Part shown: positions 18,643-52,807 of the stretch, in pieces
Layout of the letters: every line of letters starts with the position of its first letter
How positions within the stretch are numbered: position 1 is the first letter of the stretch
NCBI RefSeq assembly: GCF_032854445.1
Contig: NC_088300.1
Coordinates: 28,379,608 to 28,443,607, forward strand
Direction of reading: 5' to 3'
Length of the DNA stretch: 64,000 nucleotides
Source: Liolophura sinensis
Lineage: Eukaryota; Mollusca; Polyplacophora; Chitonida; Chitonidae
Made by a program: the position numbers and the translations under genes
The notes under the pieces: model-generated
Seen by the model: the letters and a program-made list of their open reading frames with translations, nothing else
Database searches by the model: none
Told to the model about the DNA's origin: nothing

Positions 18643-18698
<56 letters not shown>

Positions 18699-21600: not shown

Positions 21601-24600
21601 ACTGTATAAAGTATTTTTCATTGAAACTCGCACTGAGAACATTTAAAAACTACAGTGCACCATTATAATTTTGGGTTAAATGTTTGAATATAATTATGTA
21701 TTAAAAGACAGCTGGTTCCTACAGTTAGCTTTGAATTCGAAAAAAGTTACTTTTTATGTATACTTACCGAAGTTACAGGTGGAACTAGGAGCTTGGATAG
21801 AGCGAACGAAATTCATACATGTCTCGTTGTAATGGTTATCACCAGGAGGAACAGGAATGGGGAAGCACGCGCTCCTAACACGTGAAGTAATTGGAATAAA
21901 ATTGGTTTTAATTGATGAGCTAATGATAGCTTGACTGACTGGCATAGAATTTGAGTGCTTGTTTCGTACAGTGGCTTTACAGCTATATGGATTTGTCGCC
22001 AGACACTCAACATGTATACCATTATTTTTTCATCAAAAAGAAACAATAAAGACTGAAATTTATTTCATTTAATTAATATACTTGACATTGTATATGTGTC
22101 ATATATGCATCACATTTAGACCACCTAATGACTCATTTCTTGACTGTAGGAGAATGCTTGATAGCGTAAATTGCCCAGAAATATACCACCTTTCTTTCAA
22201 ATCCCTGGTAAGTCGCCGTCTGACAGAATCAGGCAGTAAGTGTTCGCAGCAGATTATATCCGACTCTTGGAGGCCTGGAAATAACACAAGCTAATCAACT
22301 GTAATCCATTAAATTGTACTGAACATTAAAAATTGGGTAACTATGAGCAAATCATTGAGTTCCCATAGAACATGAAGTCTTGAATGCTATTAAACCTTGT
22401 TTACATAACGCTGTGCCCATATTACCAAACATCTCAAGACTTGAGTCAAAAATTCAAACACAACTACAATTAAAATGTTTGCCTGGGGGAAGGTTAAAAT
22501 TTCTACACTTAAACACTGGGGTTTATGACAGAAGTCGAATGTTGCTTGATAAGTACGAACCCTGTACAACTTAGAAGCCAGCTAATCTTTAGAATCACAC
22601 AACATAAACCTTATTACAGGAATGAACAACGGCTGCACACATTCAGGAAAAATAAATAAATGACTAACAAACATTTCCGTCATTCACATAAGTATAAAAC
22701 ACCATACAAAACAAAGCTTGCTGTACGAAGCGTATTGAAATGTTCAAATATTATAACTGCTGCATTTAGCATAATGTTCATTCCTCCATTATCAATGTCT
22801 TTGGATCTTCCATTTACTAAGACCTACCTTTCTCAAATGGCGTGCTTGTGATATCATGATCCACAAACTGTCCCCACTGCATGAGCATGTGGTTATACTT
22901 GTTCTTAGGCTCCTTTTTCGGTCCATGTTCGTGAACAGTTGTGCTGATCTTCCTGGTGCTTGTCAAGGGGAACCCGAACAGGTTCAACTCACGAGGAGCA
23001 GATACACCTATATAAACCAACGACTTAAGCATGTGTGAGTTATGTCATTTTATTTAATGAGTTTAATAATTTATTAATTATTATATCATATTATGAAGAT
23101 TTATTGTACAAAAATGTACATATTATTTACCTGTTCGTTTATTTACAGGAATAAGTATAGAACTCCGATAAGTAAACGCCAGTTGTGGTGATTTCAGTTT
23201 TACTTTTGCATGAAATTCTTGTGATGTTTACATGTATAATATCTCCTCCTGAACAGAAAAGAGCTCTTAAAAACGGAGTTTCGGGACAAAAGCACCCAGT
23301 GCTCTTGATATGGTCATTTTAGTCAGTGAAAGAAAAAAGACAATTACAAGTAGTTTTGGAAATAATTACATCTTTTCAGTTGAGGAATTATTTTTAAGAT
23401 ATTCTTTCACTAAAGGTACAATGCATACCCTAAAATGGGTAGCTAAATTATACGAAAAAGTCAAACTACCGTTCATTTACCAAATATACAGTCCAAAAAG
23501 TTCAATAAGTTTTCTTAAAACAATACCCGGAATGCCTTTTAACGCGCATGCACTGAATTATCAACTTTTGTAACAATCCCCATCCAAGAGACAGCCCTTG
23601 TACAACTTAGTTTTAAGGTGATCTATCCTAAATAGCAGCTAGTCTAAACAGAAGTAATACACTTGCCATCTTGGTACCGTGGCGCAATGAACCTCTGCAT
23701 GGGCGTAACAGCTTTACCCCAGAGCGGGTTGCCGAGGTTATTACATGACCCGTCAGCAGTTCTGAAAGGGTAGTCCCGGTCACATCGAGGAGTTTGGTAG
23801 GGGCACTGGAACTGGGGCTTCGGGAAATTCTGACTCAGAGTCGGCAATGATCGAGATCGGATCGGGTCAAGCGATATCCTGAAAATATGTGAACGTTAAT
23901 TTGTAACCCTTCGATACAATTTATGTTTTAATTTGAGCACAGGTTTCAACAAATTACGGCTCATGTTTGTTCCTCGGACTCTAAAATAGTATACGTGTGT
24001 AAGCTTACAATATCTGAATGATAACAAACTGGGGACAGAAACTTATTAAAACATGAAAAACTTTATGTCAAACGTGAAGTCTGACTTTGACCATTTGACT
24101 CCACATAAGATTTATATTTAACTAACGATGNNNNNNNNNNNNNNNNNNNNNNNNNNNNNNNNNNNNNNNNNNNNNNNNNNNNNNNNNNNNNNNNNNNNNN
24201 NNNNNNNNNNNNNNNNNNNNNNNNNNNNNNNNNNNNNNNNNNNNNNNNNNNNNNNNNNNNNNNNNNNNNNNNNNNNNNNNNNNNNNNNNNNNNNNNNNNN
24301 NNNNNNNNNNNNNNNNNNNNNNNNNNNNNNTAACTAACGATGTTTGTTTAAAAGTAATACAAGAGAATCCATAATTTAAATACCAAAAGAACATTATGAT
24401 GGAAATTAAAATCAGCAAAATGCAGATATGTTGTTCTGGCTGAAAATAGTTTCACTGTAGTGATGGGTTTACCGATATTCGTCACACACTATACTGCAGC
24501 TGTCATCGTGCTAGTCCGAGGACTGTACAACCAGTGACGTCACGAGTTGCATGGGGAGTTTGAAGACGTAAAATAATTTGCATTCCTGGACTGAGACTTG

Positions 24601-29014: not shown

Positions 29015-29125
<111 letters not shown>

Positions 29126-29385: not shown

Positions 29386-29764
29386 AATGTAGATTATGAA
29401 CAGCTGTATGATTAAATATGAAGCAGTCATTTATACCTTTTCGCAGCTTTCTGCATGCTTCTCATTTGGCACGCAGGCTTAGCAAAGGTATAGAAAGGTA
29501 AGAATGCACTAAATTCATGTAAATATCAGAGTAACGAGCTCTAAACACTGCCCAGGAATATATTTTTACTTAATATTTTTATAACCGAGTAAAATGATTT
29601 TAAATCATTTGATTCTGTGGCGGTCTGTTGAGACCTAAAGGGTATCAATGATGTCACATCCGTATTTTTGATTGAAATAGTTTCAAGGTCAATTCAGCGA
29701 AAGTATTTACACAGCTGCATGAATGTGCCCTTTGAATGTAGAAGTCATGTAGAATGTAATGTCG

Positions 29765-30130
29765 CCTGCTTAACTATAGGCCCTGTGGGTGTAGAATGTA
29801 ACACAAGTATGAATATAATTAAATATACCATTGACGGCTGGAGTGCAATAATTTCCCCGGCTTAACTATAGGCCCTGTGGATGTAGAATGTAACACAGGT
29901 AGGGATATAATTGAATATACCACTGACGGCTGGAGTGCAATAATTTCGCCTGCTTAACTATAGGCCCTGTGGATGTAGAGTGTAACACAGGTAGGGATAT
30001 AATTGAATATACCACTGACGGCTGGAGTGCAATAATTTCGCCTGCTTAGCTATAGGCCCTGTGGATGTAGAATGTAACACAGGTAAGAATATAATTGAAT
30101 ATACCATTGATGGCTGGAGTGTAGACAATC
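29765..30130. repeat. Tandem array, 4 x 92 bp
   Basis: The block starting 'cttaactataggccctgtg' recurs at 29769, 29861, 29953 and 30045, an exact 92-bp period. Each unit contains 'gtagaatgtaacaca', 'aatataccactgacggctgg' and 'agtgcaataattt'. The middle copies are nearly identical. No coding frame runs through it. Confidence 0.95.
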
Positions 30131-32270: not shown

Positions 32271-35200
32271 ATGACAGAGCGAGAAGAAAAAGCGTCAGCA
32301 CTTGGCTCTGTAAGTAGTCTCAACCAGTTTAAAGTGACACTTGAACAACAACATTATAATTTTCTTCACGCTGACAGTCTGTGTCACTATAAGCGTGTGC
32401 ATAGGAAAACATTTTAAATCCACAGTTAAAACTGAAAGAAGCGAATGGAAAAGTCGTTAAGCTGTATTTCATTTCCTAACTCATATGCAAATATTTTTCC
32501 CATAGAAAAGCTGATGGCGTTAGTAAAACCCTTCATTCACTTCTTAAAAAAATTGAATGATATTTATAGCATGTAGGTCTAAGTCTTTATCAGCTGATCA
32601 TTGTTATTATTTGACTCAGGAGCCACAGGGACAGGTGATGGAATGGAGACCTCGCTGCGATGTCCAATCAGTGGATGACAAAAAGAATGCCACGGTGGAG
32701 GCGAATTTTCTCAGCCCTAACACCGATCTCAACCTTCCTCCTTCCAACTGGTTACGGAGCTCATCACAAGTGGAGCGTAACCTCAGAGACAGTTGGCTGG
32801 GATGGAAACAGACACAACGAGAATTTTCCAGGTCAGCATATTAGCTGATTGTATTATATGAATGCCATGATAAGTGATAAAACATTTACTTGTAGAAATT
32901 TACCTTAGGATAATTAATGATGAGGCCAAAAGAAGATTCCATTGGTCCGACTTCATTGGTGTCACAAACGGAGAAATTGAGATTGTACACTTTGACTATT
33001 ACAAGTCTACGAGACACCTTATTAAATGGTGCAACAGTTAGATTAGTATTCTTTCTTGTTGTTTTTCAGATTGTCTTACAATCAGAATGTTGTGCATTTT
33101 CGCCATGTTCTGAAGAGAACAAAAAAGAACACTGTGTTACTTTTGATGAAGGCCACTTGCTTTCCACTGATATGGCATCCATAACATGCGAAAGGGACTT
33201 CAATTTTCACTCAGGCCAAAATTAAAATATTATATGTTTGATGTTATGCGACTGACCCTTCAAAAAGGCCCCAAGCGAAATTCTTTTTTTTTTTTTTGTA
33301 GATGCCAAATTTTTTTATTTTATTTCATTTAATTACTTGTTTGTTTTTTTGTCGATCATTTGAAGTGTCACTCAGTTTACAGGTGACAGGCCCTCTTTTG
33401 CAATGTAAAATTTCCTCTTACACTGTTGAGCAAAGCCGGCCTTGTAGCGTTTCAACTGGTATACTGTATCCGATACCTGTAGACCGAGATACCTGTGAAG
33501 TGTTTTCACCTGTATCCATCTGGATAACAGTAATATAGTGTTGCCATATTTTTTTTGGGGGGGGGGGGGGGAGTAGGTCTATACTTTACTTAACTGATGA
33601 CCAGTCTCCTTGTGTTTCTATAGAGAGACGAGCTATCAAATTAATTACTCATTTAGCGAGATAATCACTGTAAAATGTTCAAGGACATGTTATACACATT
33701 GCAGCTGTCAGGGCCTAACGACAGCAAAATTGTGACTTCTTTGTGATCCAATTCTTTTCGCCACACTATACTTTAAAAACACACCTGATCTGGCGAAATA
33801 TAATTGCTGAGAATTGTATGGTTCTGATGGCACTGGTTTGAAATGTTTACAGACACCGCCGAAACGTGGGCACAGGCCTATATACCTCCATGGACAAGTC
33901 GCTCCAGCTATAGCTGAGGTTCTACATGTAGCCCATTTACATAGATCCCATAGTTTACTTACTTTTTTTGGTACAAAAGGGAAGATTTTCTTTTTAAACC
34001 TATGTTATCAAAGAATTCTCAACAGAGCCCCTGATATTTTGGCATGGACCATTGTGTTTTCTTTCATTTTACGTGTATCAGAGGCCTCCGAATGAGCCCA
34101 TTTTATTGGCATGGAAAAGTACATTCAAGAAATCCCAAAATTTACAAAAAAGTTTAGTCAGCTGTGTGGATACCTTTACTCTTGGTTAAAACTCTGTTCT
34201 AAGGAGCACGTTGCCAGGAATACATGGGTAGAATTTCCTGAACTGTCACCACCTTCTTCCTCATGTATAAATATTTTGTGTGACTGAGGTCAAAGCTGGT
34301 GATCTGAGCTGAGGCTCACTTGGGTGCTTACACTCTTCATACTTTTTGACAATCATGTACATTGAATGATGTATTGAGGACAGAATGAATGTTTGATCCT
34401 TGATATGAAGGAAGAATCCCTTAAATGTCACAAAATTTAATTAAAATTAGGAAATTTAGGAAAATGGAAACAGATTTTCCATTTTATTAAACTACATCAT
34501 GATGTTCTGCTTCACTTGGTCATGCATGTATGTATCAGCTGGACAGGTTTTTCACATGCTCATCCCTGGGTACAGCCCCTGAAAATGCTAGCACAAACTG
34601 TTGACTTAAATTGTGCCGTAGTGCTCATAAAAATGTTTCATAAATGTTTACTTGTTAGTTTTATTGTAAAGATTTAGGAGTATTTGTTTTGAGAATTGCC
34701 AGATATTGGGTGACATAATTTAGTACTGCGTTCTAATAAATGTTGAGAAAGTTTAATCGTGATCAACCATTTGAACAGGATTCTGTGATTGTTCTTCCCT
34801 TCTGCAAACCTACCTACCCTCTTTTATTATAAAGGGCTTGTAACATCAAACAGCATTTTAATTTTGGCCTTTATAAAAATGGTTGCTATTGTATAAGTGA
34901 AAAATCTTCAGTATGGAGTTATACAACAACCAAGTAAATGAATGAATAAAAATGTAGTGAAAATGAAGTTTGTGATAATTATTTAAGACGCAAATAGAGT
35001 ATGTGGAAGTAAGAAATTGATTGTTCTTTTTCACATTTACAGCTTCAACATGGGTAATGAGTTTCCTGAATTTATTGGAGAGGTGGATGTTATTTCTGAT
35101 GCAGAGGTATGTATGTATCTTCTATCTATTTGAAATTACATGTATGTACTGAAATTAACAGTGATGCACATTTTGCCAACTACATGGGACATGGCATAAT

Positions 35201-38200
35201 AATTTCATATGTAACTATTTATAGTCGGTCTCTTGTACATAGATTGTAATATAAAGGTATGACTTACTTGTTTTCAGAACATCAAGAAGCTGTTGAAAAT
35301 TCCCTACAACAAGGCACACGTCAGCATGATGGTTCATAGGGTCAGAAAAACCTTGTTACTGGATGATTTTGACATTCACAAACATCTGCTTAGGCAGCAA
35401 GAGGTAAGAACCAACAGCTAGGAAGTTGAAAACAGCTATTTGTGAATTTGTGTGTTTTGAGGGAGGAGGACGTGATCTTGTAGTTAGTGCTTGACTTTCA
35501 GTCACTGTAACACTCTTTCCATGGGTTCAAATCCAGATCTGGACAGAGAATTTCCAAGTTCCTCCTCTCTTTCTTCTTGCTCGGCCTTGGCCACAGTAAG
35601 TGGTCAGTAAAGACCACTTGTCTTCCACCAGTAAGGTTTGAATATCAGTATCAGACATGGGAAAGTTTTTCTGTAAATGGACAAAATTCTGTGGTTTCCA
35701 CGGGCACATCGGTTTTCTCCACCCGTCATACTGACCACCATCCTGTGTGAAGTGAAAAATTGATGAGTATGGCGTAAATAAGCCAAATAAATAAGTAAAT
35801 GTTTTTAGACAATGTTTTTTTTTGGTCACTACAAAATGTGGGTTCTAGGTTAATGGAAAAGTAAGTACTTACATGTGAGTAGGATCTTTATCTTCAGCTA
35901 CAACATGGACTAATTTGGAGAGACATATTCATCAAATCCTTAAAACAGGATGTCCTTATGTTTTCCTAGTTATAATAACTATCAATTAAAGCATGTGAGT
36001 GTCTTGTTGTCCTTAAAAAACGTTCCTATAAACTTGTAACTCACCCGTTCATGGCAAATCTACACTCTAAAGGTTTATAGTTTGAATTCAATTTTGGATT
36101 TTCAGGCAGACTGGGAATGGATGAGAAAGTTTTATCAGGAAACAGTTATGAGAAACAGAGAAGAAAAAGTAAGTGGACTTGACTCAGTAAGAATTTCGGT
36201 GGCAGTTTGGTTGAATGTAATATTTGTCTGAGAGCTGATCTTGATCATTTTTAATTTGAGGATTGCTTCTGATTTGTTGTACATGCATTCATTTTGCATT
36301 AAATCTCTTCAGTTTTTTTTTATTCTGCCAGTGTGGCTTTAAACTGTAATCATTTGTTTATTCATTCACTTTTTCTTTTATTCAAGGAATTTTGTGACTT
36401 GGGTAAAAAGGTTTTCTCAATATTAGTAAATATTTCAGCGTGAAGATCATTTCAAAAACAAAGTAGTACATCGTCAAATATATGTTAATTACAGATGAAA
36501 TGTGTGAAGAAAAACAAAAGCCGATATCATCTTCAGAACAGAAACTTGTATTCTAAATTTCTCTATTACAGGTAAGTGCATATGCTTTTATTGTGTTAGT
36601 ATGTCGAGATTATGTATATTAAAGTGATTATTGTTAGAAGTTACAAGTCATGTGGACGCTACTGTTTTTATATCACCGTTTTTATACCCTTCATTAGGAA
36701 GGGCGGTGGCGGGGTGGGGGGGAAGGATATTGGAATCACCCTGTCTGTACGTTTGTGTGTCTGTCGATACAATTTTGTCCTTGTATCTCCTCCCAAACTA
36801 CTACACTCATTTTGATGAAATAATGCATCTTGCCTGTTATCTGAACTTGTGCATACTTAAGTTTAGTGGCAATCAGCTAATTATTTTCATAACTACAGCC
36901 ATTGAGGACTTGCATAACAGTGTTTTCCATGTATTCAGATTTTGTCCATGCATCTCCCCCTAATTACTGCACAGATTTTGGTGAAACCATACATCTTGGC
37001 TGTCATCTGAACTTGTGCATGCTTAAGTTTAATGGCAATCAGGTAAATATTTTCATAATATTTTCACTGTGTACCAATCTAGTAAATGAATAAATAAATG
37101 AACTGAAAGTTCCCACCATTAAAAAAATCCTGTGGAATATCATACCAAGATGGCCACCCAAACAACACAAGCACAATCTTGGCCTGACCAGAAGCTGGGT
37201 GCAGATTGATCACAAATGTAGATTTTTTTTATCGTGTGTAAAAAGTTGGGGGGAACTAGGGAGGTAACCTGATGATGTTGTTTCTGGGTATTCACAGTGT
37301 GTCAGACACAGACGGTAATGGAGGAGTGAATGGTGAGGAGCGAGAGCAGCCTGCAGCGGAGGATAGAAGTGTGACTGAAGACAGTAAGCTGCAGATTGTA
37401 CCTGAATCCCAACAACAGGTACAATGAAACAGTGTTTAAAACATACATGTACTGTGGCACGGAAATTCTAAATACTGTGATGAAGCCAAATTGTCTGCAG
37501 ACCTGTGGTGTGGTGTCACTCTTAAATGCCAATGTAACTCAGAATTTAAGCACTATTGTAACTCAGAACTCAGATATGTTATTAATGTTTTCATCTGCTA
37601 CATGTTTAAAGATTTTCCATAACCTTTCTGACATTTTCCTGATAAATAGTCTTTTCATTCATCCAAGATGAAGTTCTGCAAGACTAGGTTCCTAAATGAA
37701 GAGCTGTGTTTTTGTTTTGTAGTCAGGGGAGCCTGGTTTTCACCGTGAAGTTTTGTGGACGTTTGAGGATATACAGATGTTGATAGGTACAGACTTACCT
37801 GTCTTCAGGGCTGGCCATCACCCCTGTGTCAGTGTTAGACTGAGGTTTGTAAATTTTTACTTTGTTTGACCCGATTTATAAACATTCAGGGTCAGGGTCC
37901 TTGGTTGAGTCACACCTTAGACCTTAAAAGAGGAAGTTGTAACTTCCTCACTTGGCCTTCAGCATGAAGGGGATAGTGCAACGACTTTTTGACCCGTATT
38001 AGTATAATGGCTGGGGCGAGGCGGCTTACTTGCCTTCGGTAAGGCATCTCATTGAAACAGCACTAGATAATAGAGTTGTGGAAATCCGTCCTGTAACAAG
38101 GAGGCACAATACATGCACTCTGAGGATTCCTTCGTTGTCATATGACTGAAAAATTGTTAAGTACAACGTTAAAACCCCAAGCACTCACTCACTCACCTAT

Positions 38201-41200
38201 TTATAAACAGTTAGACCCATTTAGACCACTTTTTGTTAGCTTTAGAATGCTCTTAAATCAATAGTTTGAGTTTGTTATTCATTTTAATATGCTAATGGTA
38301 GAACCAAAAAAAGACAACTGTGTAATGTGATTTGTAGAGCATTGATTCACTTTCAGCCTTTAATAGTATGAATAATAATTATTCTGCAGAGGTTTCAATA
38401 TTCAGCACACCCCTAATATAGTGTATGTGATTGCAAAAAATAGTATTATACTCTGTAGGTGGACAGGTGAACATGTTCAAAGATTTTTACTGTGTAAAAA
38501 ATGTTAGGAAAAAATGTATAAAAGAGTATATGTGTGTACATGTAATTGTAATTTACATGTAATTTTATATGTGTGTACATGTAATTGCAGGGATATGAGT
38601 GAGCCTGTGAATGTGCTGACTGGAATGGATTACTGGCTGGACAACCTGATGTGTAATGTGCCCGAGCTGGCCATGTGCTATCACCTGAATGGTATTGTAC
38701 AGGTAAAGACATGTATATGTGTGCAGCAGACCTGTTCATGCTACAGAAATTTGCATCCACACTGCGAATACTTTATGCTCAAAAACCAATACTTTTATGT
38801 TTATTGTTGTAAATTTTACTGAAATTAATTTTTATTTTGGACATAAAAGCAAATCTGTCTCCACCAATTTTCCACAATCCATTTGCAATACAACTGTTCA
38901 ACCAACCCAGGAAGAAAACAATAATTTCAGTGTAATGGTAACCATGTGTGTATTACAACAAAACAAGTTGTGTCGAAATCAAAATGTTTTCAAGGGCATT
39001 ATTCAATACCAATTGCATCAAGATTGGATGAAATGTTTGGAGCTGTGAATATAGGGCAATATTCACTTTAAAAATATAAGAATGCGTTACCTCCTAATTT
39101 TACATCTGTGTCTATTTCGTTTACAGAATTATGAACTTATTAAAACAGCTGAAATTCCTAATCTTGACAACTCAAAGTTCTCACCACAAGAAGTCACAGA
39201 CATTGCCAAAAATATTTTATCTTTTCTGAAATCTAATGCGACTAAAGAAGGCCACACCTACTGGCTGTATAAAGGTAAGTGCATGTGACAAAAAACTACA
39301 GGTAGTTCAGTTTTGAAAAAGTAGTTCAGGTTTGCACAGTTGGTTTTGTGCAGGCTTGATATATGATTCTTGTTAGCCTTTTCCAGATTAGGATAGTACA
39401 AAGTATTTACACGCAATACAGTGTCGTTCTAAAGAATATTTCACTTCTACGATGGCTGCCAGCATTATGGTGGGAGGAAACCCAGCAGAGCCAGGAGAAA
39501 CCCATGACCATCCATAGGCTGCTGAAGACCTTTCCACATACCCATTACAATGTTGCCTTCCTCAAATACATGAGGAGTTCCATCAAAGCAACAGTACTGT
39601 GCTAGGAAATATTACAAGGTAAAGGAAATATATGTGCACAGTGTATGCATTTGCGCATTTTCACTCAGTGGAGGTTGGTGTTGCACCTACATGTATCCCC
39701 CATCCCCCTGTAAACATTGGAGGGTACTTTGTATTTGACAATTCACCTGCAAACCCCTAGTTAGGATTTTATAGAAGGGTACAGCACCTAGCACGTACAA
39801 TTTGAACCCTGCCCCTTCTTTGTCTGGCACAATGTTAATTACTAGGCAGTAGATATTGTCATCCAGCCCATTTTTTTTTTTTTTTTCCACAAGACTACCT
39901 TTCCATCATGTCCCTATTGATTTCTAGCTAGGGGTCTTACCTCTCTGTGTTGTGTTCCCCTAGGTGTGGATGATGACGTGGTCAAGCTGTATGACCTGAC
40001 CACTCTGTGCGCTGATTACATGGAAACTAAGAACGAGAACCCATTCACAGTGCCACTGGGCATGTTATTATACAGAGTGGCTCGCAACATGTGGAAGACC
40101 GCAACAAGAAAACATGCCTCCACAATCAGGACACTACTCAACACCTGTGTCATGTTACTGGACCAGGAGAAATATGCGCAGGTGAGTGTAGTCAACTGTG
40201 ATCAGGACACTGCTCAAGACCTGTGTCTTGTTACGGGACCAGGAGAAGTATGCACAGGTGAGTCTAGTCAGCAGTGATCAGGACACTGCTCAAGACCTGT
40301 GTCTTGTTACGGGACCAGGAGAAGTATGCACAGGTGAGTCTAGTCAGCAGTGATCAAGAACACTGGTTATCACCTGTGTCCTGTTACAGGACCAGGAGAG
40401 GTATACTCAGGTGAGTCTTGTCAACAGTGATCAGGACACTGCTCATCACCTGTGTCATGTTACAGGACCTGGAGACGTATACTCAGGTGAGTCATGTCAG
40501 CAGTGATCAGGACACTGCTCAATACCTGTGTCATACTACTGGACCAGGAAAAGTATACTCAGGTGAGTCAAGTCAGCAGTGATCAGGAACACTGCTCATC
40601 ACCTGTGTCATGTTACAGGACCAGGAGAAGTATACTCAGGTGAGTCTTGTCAACAGTGATCAGGACACTGCTCATCACCTGTGTCTTGTTACTGGATCAG
40701 GAGAAGTATGCTCAGGTGAGTCTAGTCAGCAGAGATCAGGACAGTTCTCATAACCTGTGCAATGTTACTTGACCAGGAGAAGTCTGCTCAGGTGAATCTT
40801 GTCATCAGTGATCAGGACACCTCTCATCACCTGTATCATGTTACAGGACCAGGAGAAGTATGCTCAGGTGAGTCTAGTCAGCAGTGATGAGGAACACTTC
40901 TCAGCACCTGTGTCATGTTACTGGAGCATGGGAAGTATGCTCAGGTGAGTCTAGTCCGCAGTGATCAGGACACTGCTCATCACCTGTGTCCTGTTACTGG
41001 ACCAGGAGAAGTCTGCTCAGTTGAGTCTTGTAATCAGTGATCAAGACACTGCTCAATACCTGTGTCATACTACTGGACCAGGAGAAGTGTGTTCAGGTGA
41101 GTCTAGTCAACAGTGATCAGGGCACTGTGTCATGTTGTTGGACCACGAAAGGTATACTCAGGCAAGTCTAGTCAACAGTGATCAGCACACTTCTCATCAC

Positions 41201-44200
41201 CTGTGTCATGTTACTGGACCAGGAGAAGTATGCTCAGGTGAGTCTTGTCAGCAGTGATCAAGACACTGCTCAATACCTGTGTCGTGTTACTGGAACAGTA
41301 GAAGTGTGCTTAGGTGAGTCTTGTCAGTAGTGATTAGGACACTGCTCAACACCTGTGTCATGTTACTGGACCATGAGAAGTACACTCAGGTGAGTCTTGT
41401 CATCAGTGATCAGAACAGTTCTCTACACCTGTGTCATATTACTGGACCAGGAGAAGTATGCTCAGGTGAGTCAAGTCAGCAGTGATGAGGAACACTGCTC
41501 AGCACCTGTGTCATGTTACAGGACCAGGAGAAGTATACTCAGGTGAGTCTTGTCAACAGTGATCAGGACACTGCTCATAACATCACCTGTGCCCTGTTAC
41601 TGGACCATGAGAAGTCTGCTCAGGTGAGTGTAGTCAGCAGTGGTTAGGACACTGCTCAGCACCTGTGTCCTGTTACTGGACCAGGAGAAGTATGCTCAAG
41701 TGAGTGTAGTCAGCAGTGATTGAACAGGTAATTCTCCCTTTTGTGGAATACTTTAGGTACACAGACTTGTGAATGTGTATATTGGTTCACATGCATTAAG
41801 GACATTAATGCATTTGGATTACCAAAATAACTGATCATTGCTTTTTGATTTTGTTCACACATGTAGGTGTACACTTCGGCCCATTTCCTGCTGGCGGATG
41901 TCTACGTACCTGACAGTGTGGTTAGTGATGTATGGGGACTGTCATCTAACAACGATGAATCTGACTCTGAGTGTGAGGATGCAGAACAGGTAAACATTAC
42001 ACTATAACTGAACAGTGTGACCTGCTGACCATTACCTGCTGACTGACCTGTACGTACCCGACATTATGGTTAGTGATGTGTGAGGATGTAGAACAGGTAA
42101 ACATTACACTATAACTGAACAGCGTGACCTGCTGACCATTACCTGCTGACTGACCTGTACGTACCCGACATTATGGTCAGTGATGTGTGAGGATGTAGAA
42201 CAGGTAAACATTACTCTATAACTGAACAGTGTGACCTGCTGACCGTTACCTGCTGACTGACCTGTATGTACCCGACATTATGGTCAGTGATGTGTGACGA
42301 TGTAGAACAGGTAAACATTACACTATAACTGAACAGCGTGACCTGCTGACCATTACCCGCTGACGGACCTGTATGTACCTGACGGCATGGTCAGTGATGC
42401 GTGAGGATGTAGAACAGGTAAACATTACACTATAAGTGAGCAGTGTGACCTGCTGACCGTTACCTACTGATGGACCTGTATGTACCTGACAGTGTGGTCA
42501 GTGATGTGTGAGGATGTAGAACAGGTAAACATTACACTATAACTGAACAGTGTGCCCTGCTGACCATTACCTGCTGACAGACCTGTATGTACCTGACAGT
42601 GTGGTCAGTGATGTGAAGTAGAACAGGTAAACATTACACTATAACTGAACAGTGTGACCTGCTGACCATTAACTGCTGACAGACCTGTATGTACCTGACA
42701 GTGTGGTCAGTGATGTGAAGTAGAACAGGTAAACATTACACTATGACTGAACAGTGTGACCTGCTGACAGTTACCTGCTGACGGACCTGTACGTACCTGA
42801 CAGTGTGGTCAGTGATGTGGAGGATGTAGAACAGGTAAACATTACATATAACGGAACAGTGTGACCTGCTGACCGTTACCTACTGACAGACCTGTATGTA
42901 CTTGACAGTGTTGTCAGTGATGTGTGATGATGTAGAACAGGTAAACATTACACTATAAGTGAGCAGTGTGACCTGCTGACCGTTACCTGTTGACAGACCT
43001 GTATGTACCCGACATTATGGTCAGTGATGTGTGATGATGTAGAACAGGTAAACATTACACTATAAGTGAGCAGTGTGACCTGCTGACCGTTACCTACTGA
43101 TGGACCTGTACGTACCCGACATTATGGTCAGTGATGTGTGATGATGTAGAACAGGTAAACATTACACTATAAGTGAGCAGTGTGACCTGCTGACCGTTAC
43201 CTACTGATGGACCTGTATGTACCTGACAGTGTGGTCAGTGATGTGTGATGATGTAGAACAGGTAAAAATTACACTATAAGTGAGCAGTGTGACCTTCTGA
43301 CCGTTACCTACTGACAGACCTGTATGTACCTGACAGTGTGGTCAGTGATGTGTGACGATGTAGAACAGGTAAACATTACACTATAAGTGAGCAGTGTGAC
43401 CTGCTGACCATTACCTACTGATGGACCTGTATGTACCTGACAGTGTGGTCAGTGATGTGTGACGATGTAGAACAGGTAAACATTACACTATAAGTGAGCA
43501 GTGTGACCTGCTGACCGTTACCTACTGATGGACCTGTATGTACCTGACAGTGTGGTCAGTGATGTGTGAGGATGTAGAACAGGTAAACATTACACTATAA
43601 GTGAGCAGTGTGACCTGCTGAATGACCTGCTGATTGACCTGTACATGTATGTACCTGACAGTGTGGTCAGTGATGTGTGACGATGTAGAACAGGTAAACA
43701 TTACACTATAAGTGAGCAGTGTGACCTGCTGAATGACCTGCTGATTGACCTGTACATGTATGTACCTGACAGTGTGGTCAGTGATATGTGAAGGAATGTG
43801 TAATTATTTATTTGTTATTTAGGATGATGACAAACCAGAAACGTCTAAATCAGTGAAGGTACAGTCCTTATCTCAACCGGAACACAGTGAAGAGAAGAAA
43901 CGAACAGCAGTGGTGAAGTTCAACAGTGCTCTCTTTGGTACTGCTGAGGAAAAATGCAGGGAATGCATCAAGTGTATCATTAAGGTATAAACAATATTGG
44001 ATGTAGGACGCTAACAGCACATTTAGGCATATGCAAGTGTAGCAAGACAGCTGTAATCTGTAAAAGATGCTGTAAAGAGGCTATTCCCCAGTATTTTTGA
44101 CCAAAAATTAATCAGTGCATAGCCAGTTGAATTTTGGCTGTTATTTTAGAGTAGCCCAATTAATTACCTTTCTCAAAATGTCAGCCTCATCTTTGCACGT

Positions 44201-47200
44201 GTTACATTTTAAAATTCAGTAATAAAACTCACCAAATTTATAAAGCTGGTCACATTGACACCTTAGAATAATTGTAACCATGTAAATAGTACAGGTATGA
44301 GTCTGACATTTACTGTAAGGTAATCATTTGAGGCAATAATGCTTAAAATTCGATTTGCTTAGTGAACATTTGCTTTGGCCAAAAACCCCTCATATAGTCT
44401 CTTTAACTAAAAAATTAACAAATCATTGAAATGGTACTTTCTGTGAAAACAATAACTAAATGAGTTTTCTGTATTCAGTGGGAGGATTATCTTCCCCATC
44501 CTTTAATGGTGTTGTGTACATGTATGCTTTATTTTAAAGGGTATCACCTGTCTCAACAAACATATGTCCGCATCAGCAAGCTCCAACCAGGAAGAGACTC
44601 AGGCTACCTGTAACCCTGATGAGGCCATCCCTCTCTTCTATGAGCCCTTGTACCCCAAACACAAGACTGACCCGTCCTCAGCTGACCAGAACACTGCATC
44701 TCCCTCCACTCCAAATGTGGCTGACAGTCTACTGAGCACCTACCAGAGCAGCAGTCCCACACGGTCACCCTCAGAGCGCTGGCATCTGTTGTCCAAGGTG
44801 CTCCTGTACAGAAAAGCCGCCATGGCATACTACTCACTGGCAACCATTACCATGGAGTCCCAGAAGTACGGGACAGCTCTAAAATATATCAAGCTAGCCA
44901 TTCTGTGCTTTGGTAGGTGGCTTTATGCTTTTTGCTTTGAACAGTTTACTTTTCCTTTACTGTACCCAGTTTTATTATGGGCTGCGCTGTAGATTTTATA
45001 AGTACGCCTACAGAAACCAGTACAGAAAGCGTAATGTTGCCATGGCAGTAATTTGGAAATTACCCCTGTGGGGTTGTTGTGTTTATCTGGAGTGACCATG
45101 TGCATGTTGCAAGCCATGTGAATTAAGATGTGGAATCTGATCTTCTTGAATATAATTTCATTATGACAGCAGTCATTTGGGTGAATCAATGTACAGTTAG
45201 TGTGTAGAATTTGATTCACACATTTACAGATTGAGTGGAAAAAAAATTATTACATGTACCAGTAATTAGACAGATGGCCTAATCTAAATTACTAAGTTTG
45301 TAAGACTACATGTGTATTTGGATACATTGAGAATAGTCTGCATGTGTGGGATACAGTGCATGATTGAGGTTGTGTCAGTGTCAAGTGGTTGCTCTTTTAC
45401 AGGGGCCATGAACACACTATTGCCTGCCAAAGGTAAGGACAACAAGCCCCTGCTGTGTGTCATCCTGGGCACAGTGGCAGACATCCGCCTCATGATTGCT
45501 CACAACAGCGCTAACATGGAGACTTTTCAGCATGATTTCCAGCTTCAGGCAGAGGCAGATGTCCAAATCTCAGAGGCTGTGCAGGAAGATCTGCCAGAGT
45601 TTGGTAAGTGCTGCATTTATTTGTTTTCTCCCTACTCTGATAGAGCCCAAGCTGGCTCGAACAGAAGTGCTGCTTTGGATCTCCAACTCATTAGCCCGGA
45701 ATCGGGGAGTATGTACATGAATTTGACATGCGTTTTACGCCGTACTCAAGGAAAACATCATACACTGGATTTGAATCACATTGAGATACTTAGGAGTATG
45801 GTTGGTTAGCCAGGCCACAGAGGACCCGCCTTGAGTAATTTGAATGAGATCATATGGAAATGTTGCAGCACTAAAGTAAATCAGGTACCTGATGAAAGGC
45901 ACTGAACTTTGCAAGGTTTTTTCAACCTTTAACCTGTTACCAGTGTTGTGTATGTGAGTTATTATGAAGTTAAATTTCTTTGGAAACTACTTAAACATTC
46001 CCTGCACTCATAGTTAGGAATGAATGAATATTGCTTGCAGCAGCAATATTTTCATACCTATAAGCAAAGCAAAACTTTGTTTAACTAGAACTTAATGTCA
46101 GAGTTGCAGTGTTGAATAGCAATTTTCTTTTTAGATGTCAAGTTTTATCATTCAGACAAATTATTTTGACCTCAAGACTGGATGTCTGCTTGTATTGTGC
46201 ATGTATCAGGAAGATAACACTCTGCCCTGTGTATGTTTTCTTACTAAGTGTTTGTTTATTGTAGATAAGGAGTGGATGTACACGCTAACTGACAGTATAG
46301 AGACAAACTTGAGATGTTGTGGGCTGTGTTATGATGAGGCTCGGCAAATAGCCTTGTCGGAAAATATGTCAGACCCTTCCATGCTGCAGTCACTGGCTAA
46401 GAGGTTTGGTAATGCCATGAACGAGCTGGGTGTGTTACACATGAACAAAGCCCTGGCCGTGGTCACAGGCACAGGTAAGTCCCTCCTATAGACTTTTACC
46501 TTAGACAGGCAGCCTAAGTTAAAGTCTGTCTGTCTTTCGATGGGTCAGTCATATGTTTGGATTCCTATCTTTTAAAATGGGCTCAGCAAATTGCTTGTGT
46601 TGGATGACACTGACATTTTACAGGATGTGCTGTTTCAGATTTGTGCTTGTTGAAGTAAAGTACTTGTAATGCCCAAACATATATATATGTACATTGTATC
46701 TGCGGTCATTTTATCTTCACAAAGGGGCCTCCGTGGCCTGGTGGTTAGCGTGCTATCGCAGCTTATTGACCAAGGAGCTTTTCACCAATGCAATTGCTGT
46801 GAGTTCATGTTCATACTGGCTTACTCTCCAGAGAAATGTACCTGAGAAGGTCTGCCAGCAACCTGCATATGTTCTTGGGTTTCCCCTGGGCTCTACCTGG
46901 TTTCCTCCCACTATAATGCTGGCCACTGTCCTAATAGTGAAATATTTTTAAAGATTAAAGAAATATGTTGCCATTATGAAATTTTGATTTCAGCGGAGTG
47001 GAGGCCTGTTGAGGAGCAGGAGATTGTGTGGAAGCTGAGTTACAGCTGTTTTGATCAGGGAGTCCAGGCATTTGAATCTGTGGGGGACATAACTAACCAG
47101 GCTCTTCTACTGTCCAACATTGGCCAGCTGATGAGGATATGTGCTCAGGCCCATGCTATGGCTATAACAGATGGGGAAAACAAGAGGGAGTTCTGTGCAG

Positions 47201-50200
47201 GGGAGAGGCACTACTATACAAAGGTAGGCACTTTCATTTATTTATTTATTAATTTATTTGATTGATGTTTTATACTCAAAAATATTTCACTTATACGACA
47301 GCGGTCAGCATTATGGTGGGAAGAAAGTGGACAGAGCCCGGGTTAACCCTTTATTATTCCCTGGTTGCTGACAGACCTTCCCATGTCCATGCGCTTTGCT
47401 GGCAAACCACAGAGGCCTTGGAGGCCTCCATAGGCAGTTTTAGCTGCCACTGTAAACCAGGTCTGACAAGCTAACTTTGGGAAATTCACTTATATAAGGC
47501 ATCAAGTACAAAACGGCACAGTTGTATTTCACCTAAAGTGTAGCGTTTGACAGGTGACACATTTTGCTTGATTCTGATTGGTTCATCCATGTTATACATG
47601 TAGGATTGCTTAAGAGTTATTTGTGAAAATTAATAAATTTCTTGTCTGAAAAAAAGTGTTGTCATCAGAAGTATCATTTTGAGGCCCTTATGTAATTCTG
47701 AAAGTGCACTTTTTACATACCAAACCTCCGGTGAAATACTGTAATCGAATTCGGAAGGTGTAGTTTTTGAAAATTTGCCCTATTTACCTATATTATCTAT
47801 ATGTAGATCGGCCAAGTATTTTCAGTGATGGCATATATGTGTCATGTGTATCTTAAGTTACCTGAAGAAACGAAATGTTTTTGCCAATTTTGATAATACA
47901 TTTCAATTTGGTATTCACTTCGACACCTTCAACATGGAAATATAGAATCCTTTTTATCCTTTTAAATGGAAAATTAAGGGAGACAACCGTGTGATTTCAA
48001 GGGGATCAAGGGGGACAACTTTGCAATTCCACCTTTACTTACTGTTTTTTCCAGGCAATAAACTTTTACCAGAAAGCTCTGACAGTTTTGTCGAGCCGGC
48101 CCAAGTTACCTCAGATATGGGATTCTGTGAACTGGGAGTTGTCCACTACATACTTCAACATGGCCATGTTACTTCAGGATCATGCACCAGTGTCATCCAT
48201 GTCTTTAGAACAGGTAGTTGTCACTTAGGTCTACTTTTCCATTGGAACTATTTTAGTGGTAAATTGATGTGTGTTAAGTAATGACTCTACATGTTACACC
48301 AGTTCTTCATGATATAAGTAAGACATCAACATGCATTTACCAATGAGTTTAAGATTAGCAAGACATAAGTCCTAGTGGACATGTGAAACAAACAAATTAG
48401 TGCTATTTGGACTAGTGCTATATCTGTACATCACATGTGGGAAATGTTGTGAGTACTATGTCAAAAGTCAGTGGTTTGCCCCAGGCACTATGGCTTCTGA
48501 CACCCATAAAACTGACGCCCGTTTTCTAAGTGGAGGGACTTTTACTAGCCAAAAATATGATGTTTGAGATTCGTTTGTATTTTGTAATAAAAATTTGTGA
48601 AAATTGTGTTGGGGGTGGGAAGCGGGGGGAGTCTTTTGTGGTCTGTCAGATCTTTTTTCCTGTCTGCAAATCAGGAGCAGAGGAGCAAGGACAATCGTGA
48701 AACACATGCACGCACAAAAGCACAAACAGGTTCGGTTAATAGACCAAACGCTAGTTGCTATATTCTTCACACAACGTACCAGACTGAAATACAAAATATA
48801 CACTCTGAAATGCTGTCTGAGCACATCTTAACATAATCAAAACGTTAAAAAAATTTCCGACCAGCAAGAAGAGGGGAGACACCCCTCTTGCACTCAAACC
48901 ACCACCACACACTGCACCCCCACCCACCAATCTTTCCCACGCTCGTTACTTGTCCGCTCACTCATAGTGCTCATTCCATTCAGAATATAAAATATTTTCA
49001 GACTTTTTCCCAGTTATCATTCTTATCCCTGTAAGTGAAAAATGTCTGAGCATGGTGTGAAACACTAATCAAATAAATCAAATTCTGTGCATCCCATTTC
49101 TTTTGGGTGATAATTTTCTTCTTAACAAGATGTTGGCAGGAACATATCCAAACTGTTTGTGCAGTAAATTAAAGGTGTGATATATCTGTGAGTTGCAGAC
49201 AGAGAAGGAGATAACAGAGTTGATGAACAAGGCACTGAGACACTGTGATGTGGAGAGGAATTCCTGTAAAGCTGTTGGTTATCAGTACAGAGCTGCCACC
49301 ATCAACTACAGACTGGCCTCACTCCACCACAACAGTTATAGGAAACAGGTATTGCTAGTGCTACAACACCAGCTTGACTTTTCTGAATTGATGGCATTGT
49401 GGAAAGTTAGAGGTCTTTATTTAAGATAAGTTTTCTGAAAACATACGATGTAACTCAACCACAACAAGTGTCAATATTCAGTTAATGTGTTCATTAACAC
49501 CATCAGATTTTTACGATATGAGATGCTACCAAGTGTGATCTTATGACCCTATAATCTTTGGAAAGAAGTGGTGAGAGGTTGAAATATTTACGCTGATATG
49601 TGCGTGTGACCTATGCAAAGTTGACATCCTGGCATTTTGGTACAAGCCCAGAACTTGATTAAAAATAAATGCTGACTGTAAGCATTTAGAGTTTGCCAGT
49701 ATCTCAAGTTGAAACTGATGTGCTTGGACAACATGTTTCAGTCAGTACTTTCTGATTACGTTATCATAGCAGTAAAAGACTTGTAAAAGACTAAAGAAAA
49801 CTATAAATCACGGATGATGTCAACTGGATTTGCAGCAAGAATATCATGTTCAGGCACATGTAAATGATTAAGGACAGCCTGTCCAAATTCTTGCAAAACT
49901 GTGTAGTTCAGGCTCAGGTGTTGCTACTTCCCCTTTATTTTAATTTTTTTTTCTTGGCTTGTGCTTAATGGTGTTTTCTAGAATGTTTTGCTCATATTTA
50001 ATTCTGCCATGCACTTTGTTTGCTTCTGGTTCTCTAGTTGTACAGACAGACGCATTCTTTTGTGACACACATATGGGAAGAAAATGCTATGATTGTCTGT
50101 TTATCATATTTGAAATTTTTACAATTTATAGATATGGCTTCAGCATTCTCATAAAGAGTTGAAAATGTTTTACTTAATGTGAAGACCATTGAACTCAAAT

Positions 50201-52807
50201 TTTCAACTTTATTTCAGGCCAACACTGAACAGAAGCGGAAGTATTTGCGCCAGATTGCCTTTAACCATTATGACAAGGCAGCTATGTTCTTTGAACTAAC
50301 CGAAAGTTTCAGTGACTTACTGAGGGTTCATCTAGAACAAGTGGCCCTCTGTGAATTCTGTTTGGAAGGTAAGAATTGAGGACATTTTGAAAGCAGTTGC
50401 CTTGCTTATAGTTTAAATGCTGTTTCTCGCACAACATAATATCACTTGTTGGCTTTATTGTGATGTACATGTAAGTGTAAACATTACTGTTGGGAAGAAT
50501 GAAATCATGGCTGTACATATTCATATATTGTATGTGAAAATGCAACTTTCAGTGTAGTTTGGTTTATGTGCCCTTGTCCTACATGTAAATAACTGAAAGG
50601 TATATAACAGTTTCAACTATTAAAGGTAACAAATATGTGTAGCTGTATACATCTAAATTGCTCTGATTGTCGGTTTGTTGGGTTATCTCTCAGTAGGTCG
50701 ACCAAATTTTTTACATCCTGTCACTTGATCAGTGTCATTTTCATGTGATTATTAATTAAATATAATAACAACACAGTGTTTTGAATATTTCTAGACTGGT
50801 GACGTCTAATAAATTTGCAGTTAACATCACTACACATCCTGCTTAAGCCAGGGTATGCGAAAATTGCTAGATTTTATGCATTTACATGAACAGGTGGAAT
50901 AAAACCTTAACTGAGGTCAAGAGAGGCCAGATTTCACCTTTTACATGTGACCATTTGTTTCACCTTGTTACTGCTGCTCTGCTTTTACTCTCTTTGCTGT
51001 ACATGTACTTTTTTACGTTCTCTTGCATGAGTGGCATGAGTGTAAGACAACATTGACTTTTACGCTCGAATTATGAAATAAGGAGAAGTATAGTGAAAGA
51101 GGGATCAGATGCTGTCAGTAGCAGTGGCAGTGTACAGTTTGGTTTAAATTTTTTCCAATCATAGGGTTGCAGTGAACACCCATAGTACACAGGTAGCCAA
51201 TTATCGGTAGTGATTTGCATATCGAAGACCAAGGAAATCTTTTGCCGCATAGCTCAACATTTTGCTCAGGTATTCACAGGGTTGCAGTTGACTCCCAAAG
51301 TACATGGATTACCAATTGCAGTTTTGCATTCAAAGACCTCTGTGGTAAAGTTGTGCACTGCACTAGCCCACAGTGTCTTTTATCACCACAATGGTTTACA
51401 ATTGGTAATGGTTTAATTGGTAACATTTGAAGTCACTGCTCTGCAATCCTTACGCATTCGATAAACAGTCATAGCTGTGACAGTATAATAATTTTGGTCT
51501 TTGTTGTTGATTTAATGGAAACGCCTTAGTACTACATGTATATAATTAGAGGATAATATCTGTGTATGACAGTGTCAATCATTCTTTTACAAACTGCTCA
51601 ATCAGGTGAGCTGCTGGTGTTGTCATATGTTACAGCTATTGCTGAAATTGCATGTTTGTGCATGTAGTAAAGAGTGTAACCTTGTGACATGTACTTGGGC
51701 ATTGCAGAGTTACAGGACTCAGGACTGAAGTGTAACCTTGTGACATGTACTTGGGCATTGCAGAGTTACAGGGCTCAGGACTGAAATGTAACCTTGTGAC
51801 ATGTACTTGGGTATTGTAGAGTTACAGGGCTCAGGACTGAAGTGTAACCTTGTGACATGTACTTGGGTATTGTAGAGTTACAGGGCTCATAATTGAAGTG
51901 TAACCTTGTGACATGCACTTGGGTATTGCAGAGTTACAGGGCTCAGGACTGAAGTGTAACCTTGTGACATGTACTTGTGTATTGCAGAGTTACAGGGCTC
52001 AGGATTGAAGTGTAAGATGATGGAGGATATACTGGGGTATCTGCTCTCCTGTAAGACTACTGTCGCTGGCCTGGTCAGGCTGTCCAAGGAGAAGGACTGC
52101 CAGGAGAGCTGTGAGCTGGCAGAGTGGGACAAACTCCTCAATATACTCAAATCACGGCTACTCCATATTTTACTCTCTCTCATGAAACAGTACAGTAAGC
52201 TGAAGAAAGGGTAAGCAACAGATGAATGTTTATAGAGAGTTTCATTTGTAGGTGTAGCATTAAAGAAAAGAGAAATACATCAAAGAAGAATTCAAATTAT
52301 TCAGTATATTATTCAAGAGTGAGTGCATGCATTGTTTGTATTTAACAGGACTCCTGTTGATTTTTGAGAACTGGCAAATTTTTTTTCAGGGTCATTGCAG
52401 TCATCTGTGTTGGCAGGCTTGTGAACACGATATCTCTCAAAGCAATTTTCATCAAACTTATATACAGTTGCACCTAGTCATGTACAAAAACTTTATTCTT
52501 TTCCATTGACACTGAATTATGTTTGCAACTGATGCTTGAGGAGTATTCAGTGCATAGCACATTATTTTCTCGATGAAGTATTTATTCCCTGAGGTGACAT
52601 AGTACATGTGCATAAAGTAACCTTACTACCTGGTTTTTGGATTATAGGAAAGAAGGCGAGAGCAACAAGCTACAGAAGCTGAACACAATGTATAGTTCAG
52701 CGCTACAGGGCTTTGCTGCTGATGACCGATCCGTGGTAGAGAAGTGTGAATGTGCAGAGCAGGTATTATCTCTCATAGAGAACACCTGGATAGGAGAGAA
52801 TGGCTGA
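32271..52807 (+). CDS. EDRF1: EDRF1 orthologue (erythroid differentiation-related factor 1), complete 22-exon gene
   Basis: Exons: 32271-32309, 32620-32831, 35043-35106, 35278-35403, 36106-36168, 36495-36571, 37298-37418, 37723-37844, 38591-38702, 39127-39274, 39964-40181, 41867-41989, 43823-43984, 44540-44912, 45403-45603, 46265-46474, 46994-47223, 48055-48213, 49199-49348, 50218-50368, 51988-52210, 52648-52807. All are GT-AG and all phases agree, giving 1147 residues (vertebrate EDRF1 is about 1240). Family landmarks: LPPSNWLR, DVISDAENIKKLLKIPY, LWTFEDIQMLIG, NVLTGMDYWLDNLMCNVPEL, HTYWLYK, VVKLYDLTTLC, KYGTALKYIKLAI, WDSVNWELSTTYF and YQYRAATINYRLAS. TPR-like helices lie at about 620-653, 868-900 and 980-1020. 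Asp/Glu- and Ser-rich insertions lie at about 455-490 and 550-600. The start is the first in-frame ATG after a TGA at 32190. In vertebrates EDRF1 is linked to erythroid gene expression; the invertebrate role is unknown. Confidence 0.93.
33288..33300. repeat. T and G homopolymers in EDRF1 intron 2
   Basis: A T run near 33285-33297, with a G15-16 run further on at about 33556-33571. The intron (32832-35042) otherwise shows nothing recognised. Confidence 0.6.
35512..35802 (+). mobile_element. SINE family A, strongly decayed
   Basis: A B-box-like 'gggttcaaatccag' is followed by eroded versions of the family blocks: 'ctccacccgtcatactgacc', 'gtgaagtgaaaaat' and 'gagtatggcgtaaataag', with an AAATAAATAAG tail. 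It lies in EDRF1 intron 4. Confidence 0.6.
36660..37070 (+). repeat. Dispersed repeat with an internal direct duplication of about 180 bp
   Basis: The segment from about 36764 and the one from about 36944 share 'attttgtcc', 'catcttg', 'catctgaacttgtgcat', 'cttaagttta', 'tggcaatca' and 'attttcataa'. A 'gtctgtacgtttgtgtgtctgtcg' type leader precedes it, similar in style to the CCGT-rich tract at 13.4 kb. It lies in EDRF1 intron 6. Confidence 0.65.
37978..38200 (+). mobile_element. SINE family B, 3' portion
   Basis: It carries 'gaggcggcttacttgccttc', 'ggtaaggcatctc', 'gtcatatgactgaaaaattg' and 'ttaagtacaacgttaaaacc', then a (cact)n tail. It lies in EDRF1 intron 8. Confidence 0.8.
39425..39545 (-). 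mobile_element. SINE family A fragment
   Basis: Reverse orientation 'aagaatatttcacttctacg', 'ccagcattatggtgggagg' and 'aaacccatgaccatcc' blocks are present. It lies in EDRF1 intron 10. Confidence 0.8.
40182..41725 (+). repeat. Minisatellite of about 20 x 76 bp made from the exon 11 / intron 11 junction
   Basis: Each unit is the first 19 bp of intron 11 (gtgagtgtagtcaac... form) followed by a copy of the last 57 bp of exon 11 (template 40125-40181) ending in CAG, so that the next unit begins with another GTGAGT. Units start at about 40182, 40258, 40334, 40410, 40486, 40562, 40639, 40715 and so on to about 41700. Nearly all keep the donor; one reads TTGAGT, one GCAAGT, and one is shortened to about 65 bp. 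Only the first junction continues the EDRF1 frame into exon 12; the others are intronic. Confidence 0.95.
41990..43795 (+). repeat. Minisatellite of 17 x about 107 bp made from the exon 12 / intron 12 junction
   Basis: Donors CAG|GTAAA occur at 41990, 42097, 42204, 42311, 42418, 42525, 42627, 42729, 42835, 42941, 43048, 43155, 43262, 43369, 43476, 43583 and 43694. Each unit is about 60 bp of intron start, then a copy of the exon 12 segment 'tacgtacctgacagtgtggt', 'cagtgatgt', and the exon end 'gtgaggatgcagaacag'. About 35 bp of the real exon are missing between those two segments. Two units are 5 bp shorter. Confidence 0.95.
45727..45831 (-). mobile_element. SINE family A with internal deletion
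   Basis: 'gttttacgccgtactcaag' joins almost directly to the head 'ggttagccaggccacagagg'. It lies in EDRF1 intron 15. Confidence 0.75.
46725..46955 (+). mobile_element. SINE family A, near full length
   Basis: Head 'ggcctccgtggcctggtgg' with 'ttagcg', B-box region 'gtgagttcatgttc', 'ggtctgccagcaacctgc', 'tgggtttcccctgggctc', 'cctcccactataatgctggcc' and 'agtgaaatatttt'. It lies in EDRF1 intron 16, just upstream of exon 17. Confidence 0.9.
47236..47425 (-). mobile_element. SINE family A, 5'-truncated
   Basis: Reverse tail 'ttatttatttattaattt', then 'aaaatatttcacttatacg', 'gtcagcattatggtggga' and 'ggttgctgacagaccttccc'. It lies in EDRF1 intron 17, directly downstream of exon 17. Confidence 0.85.
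49015..49085 (+). mobile_element. SINE family A, 3' tail fragment
   Basis: 'gtaagtgaaaaatgtctgag', 'catggtgtgaaacac', 'taatcaaataaatcaaa'. It lies in EDRF1 intron 18. Confidence 0.65.
51668..51987 (+). repeat. Minisatellite of 6 x 56 bp made from the intron 20 / exon 21 junction
   Basis: Acceptor AGs end at 51707, 51763, 51819, 51875, 51931 and 51987, an exact 56-bp period. Each unit is the last 28 bp of intron 20 ('ccttgtgacatgtacttg', 'tattgcag') plus a copy of the first 28 bp of exon 21 ('agttacagggctcagg', 'ctgaagtgtaa'). Only the last acceptor continues the EDRF1 reading frame without a stop. Confidence 0.95.

Follow-up and report, generated by a model that had tools for sequence, protein, structure and literature searches.

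The window, that is, the whole 64,000-nucleotide stretch of the Liolophura sinensis genome analysed here, contains a complete EDRF1 gene on the plus strand, the coding part of which (32271..52807, +) was reconstructed as a single, splice-consistent open frame of 22 coding exons and 1147 aa. Its product matches the Pfam domains EDRF1_N (6.7e-144) and TPR_EDRF1 (1.7e-110). Among the arrays called in the window with Tandem Repeats Finder (TRF), three lie across splice junctions of this gene. Array 1 (40125..41720, +; 76-bp unit, 21.0 copies) spans the donor of exon 11 (40181|40182) and occupies most of intron 11 (40182-41866, 1685 bp; array share ~91%, from the coordinates). Its unit is composed of 57 bases from the end of exon 11 and 19 from the start of intron 11, and exon 11 (39964..40181, +) supplies, with its terminal 57 bases, the array's first copy, which is the protein-fitting one. 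Array 2 (41971..43791, +; 107-bp unit, 17.1 copies) spans the donor of exon 12 (41989|41990) and occupies nearly all of intron 12 (41990-43822, 1833 bp; ~98%, from the coordinates). By alignment, its source is exon 12 (41867..41989, +), which is itself intact, and its unit corresponds to this exon from ~41880 minus an internal 41 bp, followed by the donor and the start of intron 12. Array 3 (51673..52015, +; 56-bp unit, 6.1 copies) closes intron 20 on its 3' side and spans the acceptor of exon 21 (51987|51988). The unit in this case combines 28 bases from the end of intron 20 with 28 from the start of exon 21, thereby including the acceptor, and the first 28 bases of exon 21 (51988..52210, +) form the last, protein-fitting copy.

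According to TRF, arrays 1, 2 and 3 contain 57, 19 and 28 exon bases, respectively, the remainder being intronic. In all three cases the array extends to the intron side, next to an exon copy that is intact, and its outer edge is the copy that touches the exon. The original prediction had described the arrays as centred on the junctions; instead, each begins within the exon edge and extends into the intron. In other respects that description, which placed three arrays with unrelated units on two donors and one acceptor, is borne out by the TRF calls, the gene model and shuffled controls: no relatedness was detected among the three units, the best local scores between them falling within the range of 200 shuffles. 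Since the unit of array 2 lacks 41 exon bases while exon 12 is intact, it was a degenerate intronic copy, and not the exon, that was amplified. Direct repeats are present at the edges of array 3 (7 bases, AGTGTAA) and array 1 (2 bases). Minisatellites are usually limited to units of roughly 10-100 bp; the EDRF1 arrays consist of many copies arranged head to tail, with units inside this range or, at 107 bp, slightly above it. An assembly gap behind the arrays was considered and rejected, as the sole run of Ns in the window (24131-24330) is outside EDRF1.

Splice-site choice in EDRF1

As a result of these arrays, each EDRF1 transcript carries 18 donors from array 1, 17 donors from array 2 and 6 acceptors from array 3, all of them in similar local sequence. 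Translation of the alternatives gave early stops for 17/17 further donor words in array 1 (the word searched is missing from 3 of the 20 further copies), for 16/16 further donor words in array 2 and for 5/5 upstream acceptors in array 3. The 1147-aa protein is therefore obtained only from the outermost site, with all 38 inner sites matched (17 + 16 + 5) stopping early. Since use of any other site would insert or alter sequence and lead, on translation, to an early stop, splicing would have to use the outermost site at each array, and we infer that this is the site used by the cell.

Since only the exon-touching, outermost site gives the full protein, each gene of this kind is a natural experiment on how cells choose splice sites. 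At the two donors the correct site is transcribed first. At the acceptor it comes last, behind five look-alikes (CAG or TAG; 51708-51988) that precede the frame-keeping one, an order disfavoured by first-come and first-AG models alike. RNA reads would reveal the relative weight of exon definition, transcription order and local sequence in this choice. For annotators, the practical consequence is that false alternative exon ends are to be expected in this genome.

Junction arrays elsewhere in the genome

A randomly placed unit of the length of arrays 1-3 in the 20.5-kb EDRF1 gene, with its 42 junctions, includes a junction with a probability of 0.11-0.22, and under such random placement all three of three would do so with a probability of ~0.004-0.005, a post hoc figure. 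Because EDRF1 had been noticed for its arrays, this probability was calculated after the fact, and independent samples were therefore taken. The background was assessed in 184 kb, namely the window together with 12 arbitrarily placed 10-kb stretches, in which arrays with a score of at least 100 were considered. Minisatellites cover 20.2 of these 184 kb (11%), the 3.8 kb of EDRF1 included, and ~9% without the EDRF1 arrays; with coverage this high, overlaps with junctions are to be expected fairly often. This density speaks for one alternative, namely that EDRF1 is a lucky triple produced by pure chance in a very minisatellite-dense genome, as do the chance of a random unit including a junction given above and the per-locus word counts described below, which are not significant. 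A similar pattern, however, recurs in an independent exon sample and in word match counts, and we regard pure chance as a highly improbable account. The 24 arrays outside EDRF1 in the 184-kb sample show no enrichment of donor or acceptor words (mean ranks: donors 0.42, acceptors 0.59) and no general link to splice sites. Duplication favouring GC-rich DNA found no support in a comparison of arrays (40.0%) with their flanks (39.1%; n = 24, p = 0.53).

The independent exon sample was drawn from kinase exons found by the family PF00069. From 138 matches, 40 with short open frames were taken, repeats being disregarded (the open frame of one of them, L091, is 219 aa), and each was retrieved with flanks, 600 bp long in the first batch of 20 exons and 250 bp long in the other. 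Exon edges were set by combining the HMM match and open frame with a splice matrix derived from EDRF1, and arrays were counted at a period of at least 15 and a score of at least 100. An array spans four of the resulting 80 exon ends, some of which may not be splice junctions (L080 is without a good donor): two acceptors (L056 and L057) and two donors (L066 and L073), three of the four being in the first batch of 20 exons and one in the second. In addition, the array at L091, first classed as non-spanning, was reclassed because its unit holds the end of a neighbouring exon that is itself a PF00069 match. Thus, 5 of the 11 arrays in the kinase loci span a junction, as compared with 1.2-1.8 expected. 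The L069 array, which to judge by eye is probably junction-spanning, was left out of these five and would make six of 11. The other five arrays are non-spanning, and the arrays of L081 and L083, which are separated from the exon match by 51 and 16 bp, were counted as such. Under random placement, the probability of five or more spanning arrays is 0.004-0.021 and that of four or more 0.027-0.089, depending on the number of junctions assumed.

Splice words were also counted across the genome. The triple pattern was defined as three exact words at a spacing of 61-91 bp, with the reversed word as control, and the match counts weight each array by its copy number. For CAGGTGAGT, we found 939 triples against 55 for the reversed word, and 10097 singles against 2731, so that the triple-to-single ratio is 4.6 times that of the control. 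The corresponding ratio is 3.0 times the control for CAGGTAAGT (646/9807 vs 108/4849 reversed), 2.3 times for the acceptor word TTTTACAGG (155/12205 vs 67/12293; a few large arrays weigh heavily here) and 2.0 times for AAGGTAAGT (98/7531 vs 67/10164); the reversed controls for CAGGTAAGT, TTTTACAGG and AAGGTAAGT were counted automatically, with no listing of matches. Counted per locus among the matches listed on C1 (93 of the 100 listed for CAGGTGAGT, the last seven being in the same array, and 100 for the other words), no splice word reaches significance with the gap set to 300 or 500; CAGGTGAGT gives p = 0.059 and 0.061, and AAGGTAAGT, again among the matches listed, is below its reversed word. 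An earlier per-locus count on nearly the same listed matches (91 and 99 of 100) gave p = 0.10, 0.08 and, once the gap was widened to 1000, 0.028. Grouped by eye, the matches listed for CAGGTGAGT fall into 14 distinct arrays in the first 42.7 Mb of C1, those of the reversed word into 15 in the whole genome and those of AAGGTAAGT into 28.

In 7 of the 14 listed CAGGTGAGT arrays on C1 (R2, R6, R8, R11, R12, R13 and R14), a coding exon end is included in the right orientation. Two more (R7 and R9) begin 12 and 29 bp past an exon end, with units that resemble the donor region by eye, and the remaining 5/14 show no exon. Homology backs four of the nine exon cases: R2 is SUFU (Pfam 1.8e-9; the upstream SUFU exon, at 2.2e-4, is below the curated cut-off), R6 encodes an iron-hydrogenase-like protein (3.1e-13), presumably NARFL/CIAO3, R11 encodes choline transporter 1 (4.6e-14), and the adjoining case R9 a DNA ligase (8.3e-5, below the Pfam curated cut-off). 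R7, R8, R12, R13 and R14 have no Pfam match; there, the exon was called from the open frame and a coding score of 5.8-15.3 bits, the cut for which is soft because the non-exon array R10 scored 8.0 at an inner site. The SUFU locus (R2; merged L004 and L006) carries an acceptor array with a 61-bp unit (233-900) and a donor array with an 88-bp unit (1478-2335), the two lying within ~2.1 kb, and so joins EDRF1 in bearing multiple junction arrays. As the C1 arrays were picked by a donor word, they show that the anatomy seen in EDRF1 recurs, not how frequent it is. The suggestion in the original prediction of a class of boundary arrays stands in so far as the same anatomy is present at kinase exons and in C1 genes; a named element class is not supported, however, the search with array 1 having found a single genomic place.

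We next consider a mutational process favouring junctions, in which R-loops, paused polymerase, nicks or donor-typical words would give several-fold more arrays per base there than in deep intron. The excess of spanning arrays in the kinase loci (5/11 definite, 6 with L069), the raised triple-to-single ratios of all four splice words and the pairing of a donor array with an acceptor array at the SUFU locus point in this direction. Set against this, the probability is 0.027-0.089 when the count is restricted to the four spanned ends among the 80 chosen, the per-locus word counts among the matches listed on C1 fall short of significance with either gap (300 or 500), the 24 non-EDRF1 arrays in the 184 kb lack splice-word enrichment, and the strong CAGGTGAGT signal could be peculiar to that word. 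We consider such a process unlikely to be the main explanation, although it retains some claim. The earlier view that chance placement is unlikely and that a mechanism may favour boundaries holds in part: the kinase sample and the word match counts both lean beyond random placement, but the excess is modest (~3-4 fold), the samples are small and the per-locus counts are not significant.

Conservation of splice sites within the arrays

Multiplied splice sites could also be kept by selection, whether because they act as decoys, because they bind U1 and thereby protect long introns, or because they serve to regulate splicing. We examined this in eight junction arrays not chosen by a donor word, ranking the splice-site window of the intronic copies among the windows of the unit. 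Low ranks were obtained for array 1 (0.02), array 2 (0.11), L056 (0.11), L057 (0.20) and L073 (0.35), and the opposite for the SUFU acceptor array (0.66), array 3 (0.79) and L066 (0.97). Splice-site windows are thus not consistently less variable across the eight arrays (combined p = 0.17, with low power). In support of selection, the donor windows of arrays 1 and 2 have fewer mismatches than the window mean (3.3% vs 9.3% and 0.7% vs 6.2%, respectively), and when the eight arrays are pooled without ranks, mismatches number 31/809 at splice sites and 322/4977 elsewhere. This pooled count, however, overstates conservation because the copies share ancestry and are not independent, and every inner EDRF1 site matched leads to an early stop. 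Selection for multiplied splice sites, one of the explanations offered in the original prediction, is therefore not supported and appears most improbable, leaving room for weak constraint. Expansion of coding sequence was likewise rejected, given that the period is a multiple of three in 1/8 junction arrays and that inner EDRF1 sites give early stops.

Origin of the arrays and relation to known systems

The reading that we prefer, and consider fairly likely, is that these are ordinary minisatellites, which arose by tandem duplication across a junction, were tolerated thanks to the intact outer copy and were amplified on the intron side. The process would start with a short tandem duplication, probably between short direct repeats such as those at the edges of arrays 3 and 1, whose segment happened to take in the splice junction. 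Coding selection would then keep the copy touching the exon intact. The extra copies, being intronic and spliced out, would be free to delete, mutate and amplify in a presumably neutral manner, and for this reason the array would grow away from the exon, downstream from donors and upstream from acceptors. Duplications that include a splice site may thus be tolerated as well as those deep within an intron, while wholly exonic ones would usually break the frame. Given very dense minisatellites, such a process would leave a few per cent of all junctions bearing an array.

In favour of this origin are the position of all three EDRF1 arrays beside an intact exon copy, the degenerate source of array 2, the early stops at all 38 inner sites, the lack of consistent protection of splice sites in the copies, the density of minisatellites and the recurrence of the anatomy at kinase exons and on C1; the periods of the junction arrays, one in eight of which is a multiple of three, give no indication that the unit is under coding constraint. 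Some observations weigh against it. Random placement underpredicts the number of junction arrays, both in the kinase loci (5/11 vs 1.2-1.8) and in the word match counts (splice words at 2.0-4.6 times their reversed controls), and the donor window of array 1 is among the least variable of its unit, although this is not so across arrays. A modest extra excess at junctions, of the ~3-4 fold noted above, is probable, and it is possible that it results from a duplication bias towards words such as CAGGTGAGT.

A bolder version, in which duplication acts preferentially at junctions, loads roughly 1 in 20 of them with arrays of the exon edge plus splice site and makes introns expand outward, starting at the splice sites that bound them, strikes us as doubtful, if worth entertaining. 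Were it true, near-identical splice sites would be numerous in thousands of genes, with the cell using none but the one in contact with the exon, and splice-site minisatellites would account for much of the evolution of intron length. If the junction excess is real, it would constitute a route of intron lengthening for which the literature covered here offered no account outside human segmental duplications.

Introner elements are dispersed copies of one element that carry splice sites and make new introns. The EDRF1 repeats resemble them in carrying splice sites but differ in that array 1 is at a single genomic place: a search with array 1 only, in which very common words were skipped, found no second place in the 609-Mb genome. 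On this search with array 1, a dispersed element or introner was rejected as a candidate, the three units also being mutually unrelated. With regard to intron gain by tandem duplication, in which a new intron forms between two copies, the outermost sites yield the full EDRF1 protein with no need for a new intron, as judged from one genome.

Our literature search, which missed most subscription papers, found among the titles and opening abstract lines listed none that described arrays of this type at the junctions of an invertebrate genome. In human segmentally duplicated genes, the study by De Grassi and Ciccarelli (2009, PMC2812944) describes minisatellite internal tandem repeats at exon-intron boundaries, with 27 intron modifications after manual checks. 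The EDRF1 minisatellites likewise overlap exon-intron boundaries and alter gene structure, and are a variant of these boundary minisatellites already described in human genes. The human repeats vary between recent paralogues, average 30 bp x 4 and may create new introns, with RNA support, whereas the EDRF1 arrays, known here from DNA alone, are longer and lengthen introns, and their anatomy recurs in several unrelated genes. A tandem duplication across an intron-exon boundary is also reported for the potato RdRp gene (2016, PMC4974935; see also the related review PMC3443670). The EDRF1 duplications cross such a boundary in the same way, but where one new intron was made in potato, EDRF1 has many copies in one intron and an exon edge that still fits the protein. 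Finally, intronic minisatellites of C. elegans have been linked to alternative splicing (Glauser 2014, PMC4039745), and, like those in EDRF1, are found in introns near splice decisions. The main case in that paper, CeRep25B, is a repeat family present in multiple places with regulatory motifs, whereas each EDRF1 array bears a splice site of EDRF1 itself, and its unit is unrelated to those of the other two.

Some further repeats were observed. Two of the arbitrary 10-kb stretches, L051 (1-2052 and 6766-9997) and L046 (1346-9997), consist of minisatellite for at least half of their length, in several consecutive arrays. Upstream of EDRF1, at 29757-30121, the window has a 92-bp x 4 array; CACAG|GTAGG, a good match to a donor, occurs in its unit (rank 0.037 vs random segments). 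A dispersed repeat with the conserved core CAGCATTATGGTGGGAGGAAAC occurs at 636, 5863, 31174, 39460, 46900 and 47306, which amounts to six copies of the core in the window at up to 3 mismatches vs none expected; it is SINE-like by eye, and tRNA gene prediction called none. In addition, there are long AT/TA dinucleotide runs, pure or nearly so, at 2497-2592, 18646-18693 and 29025-29116 (48, 24 and 46 repeats, respectively).
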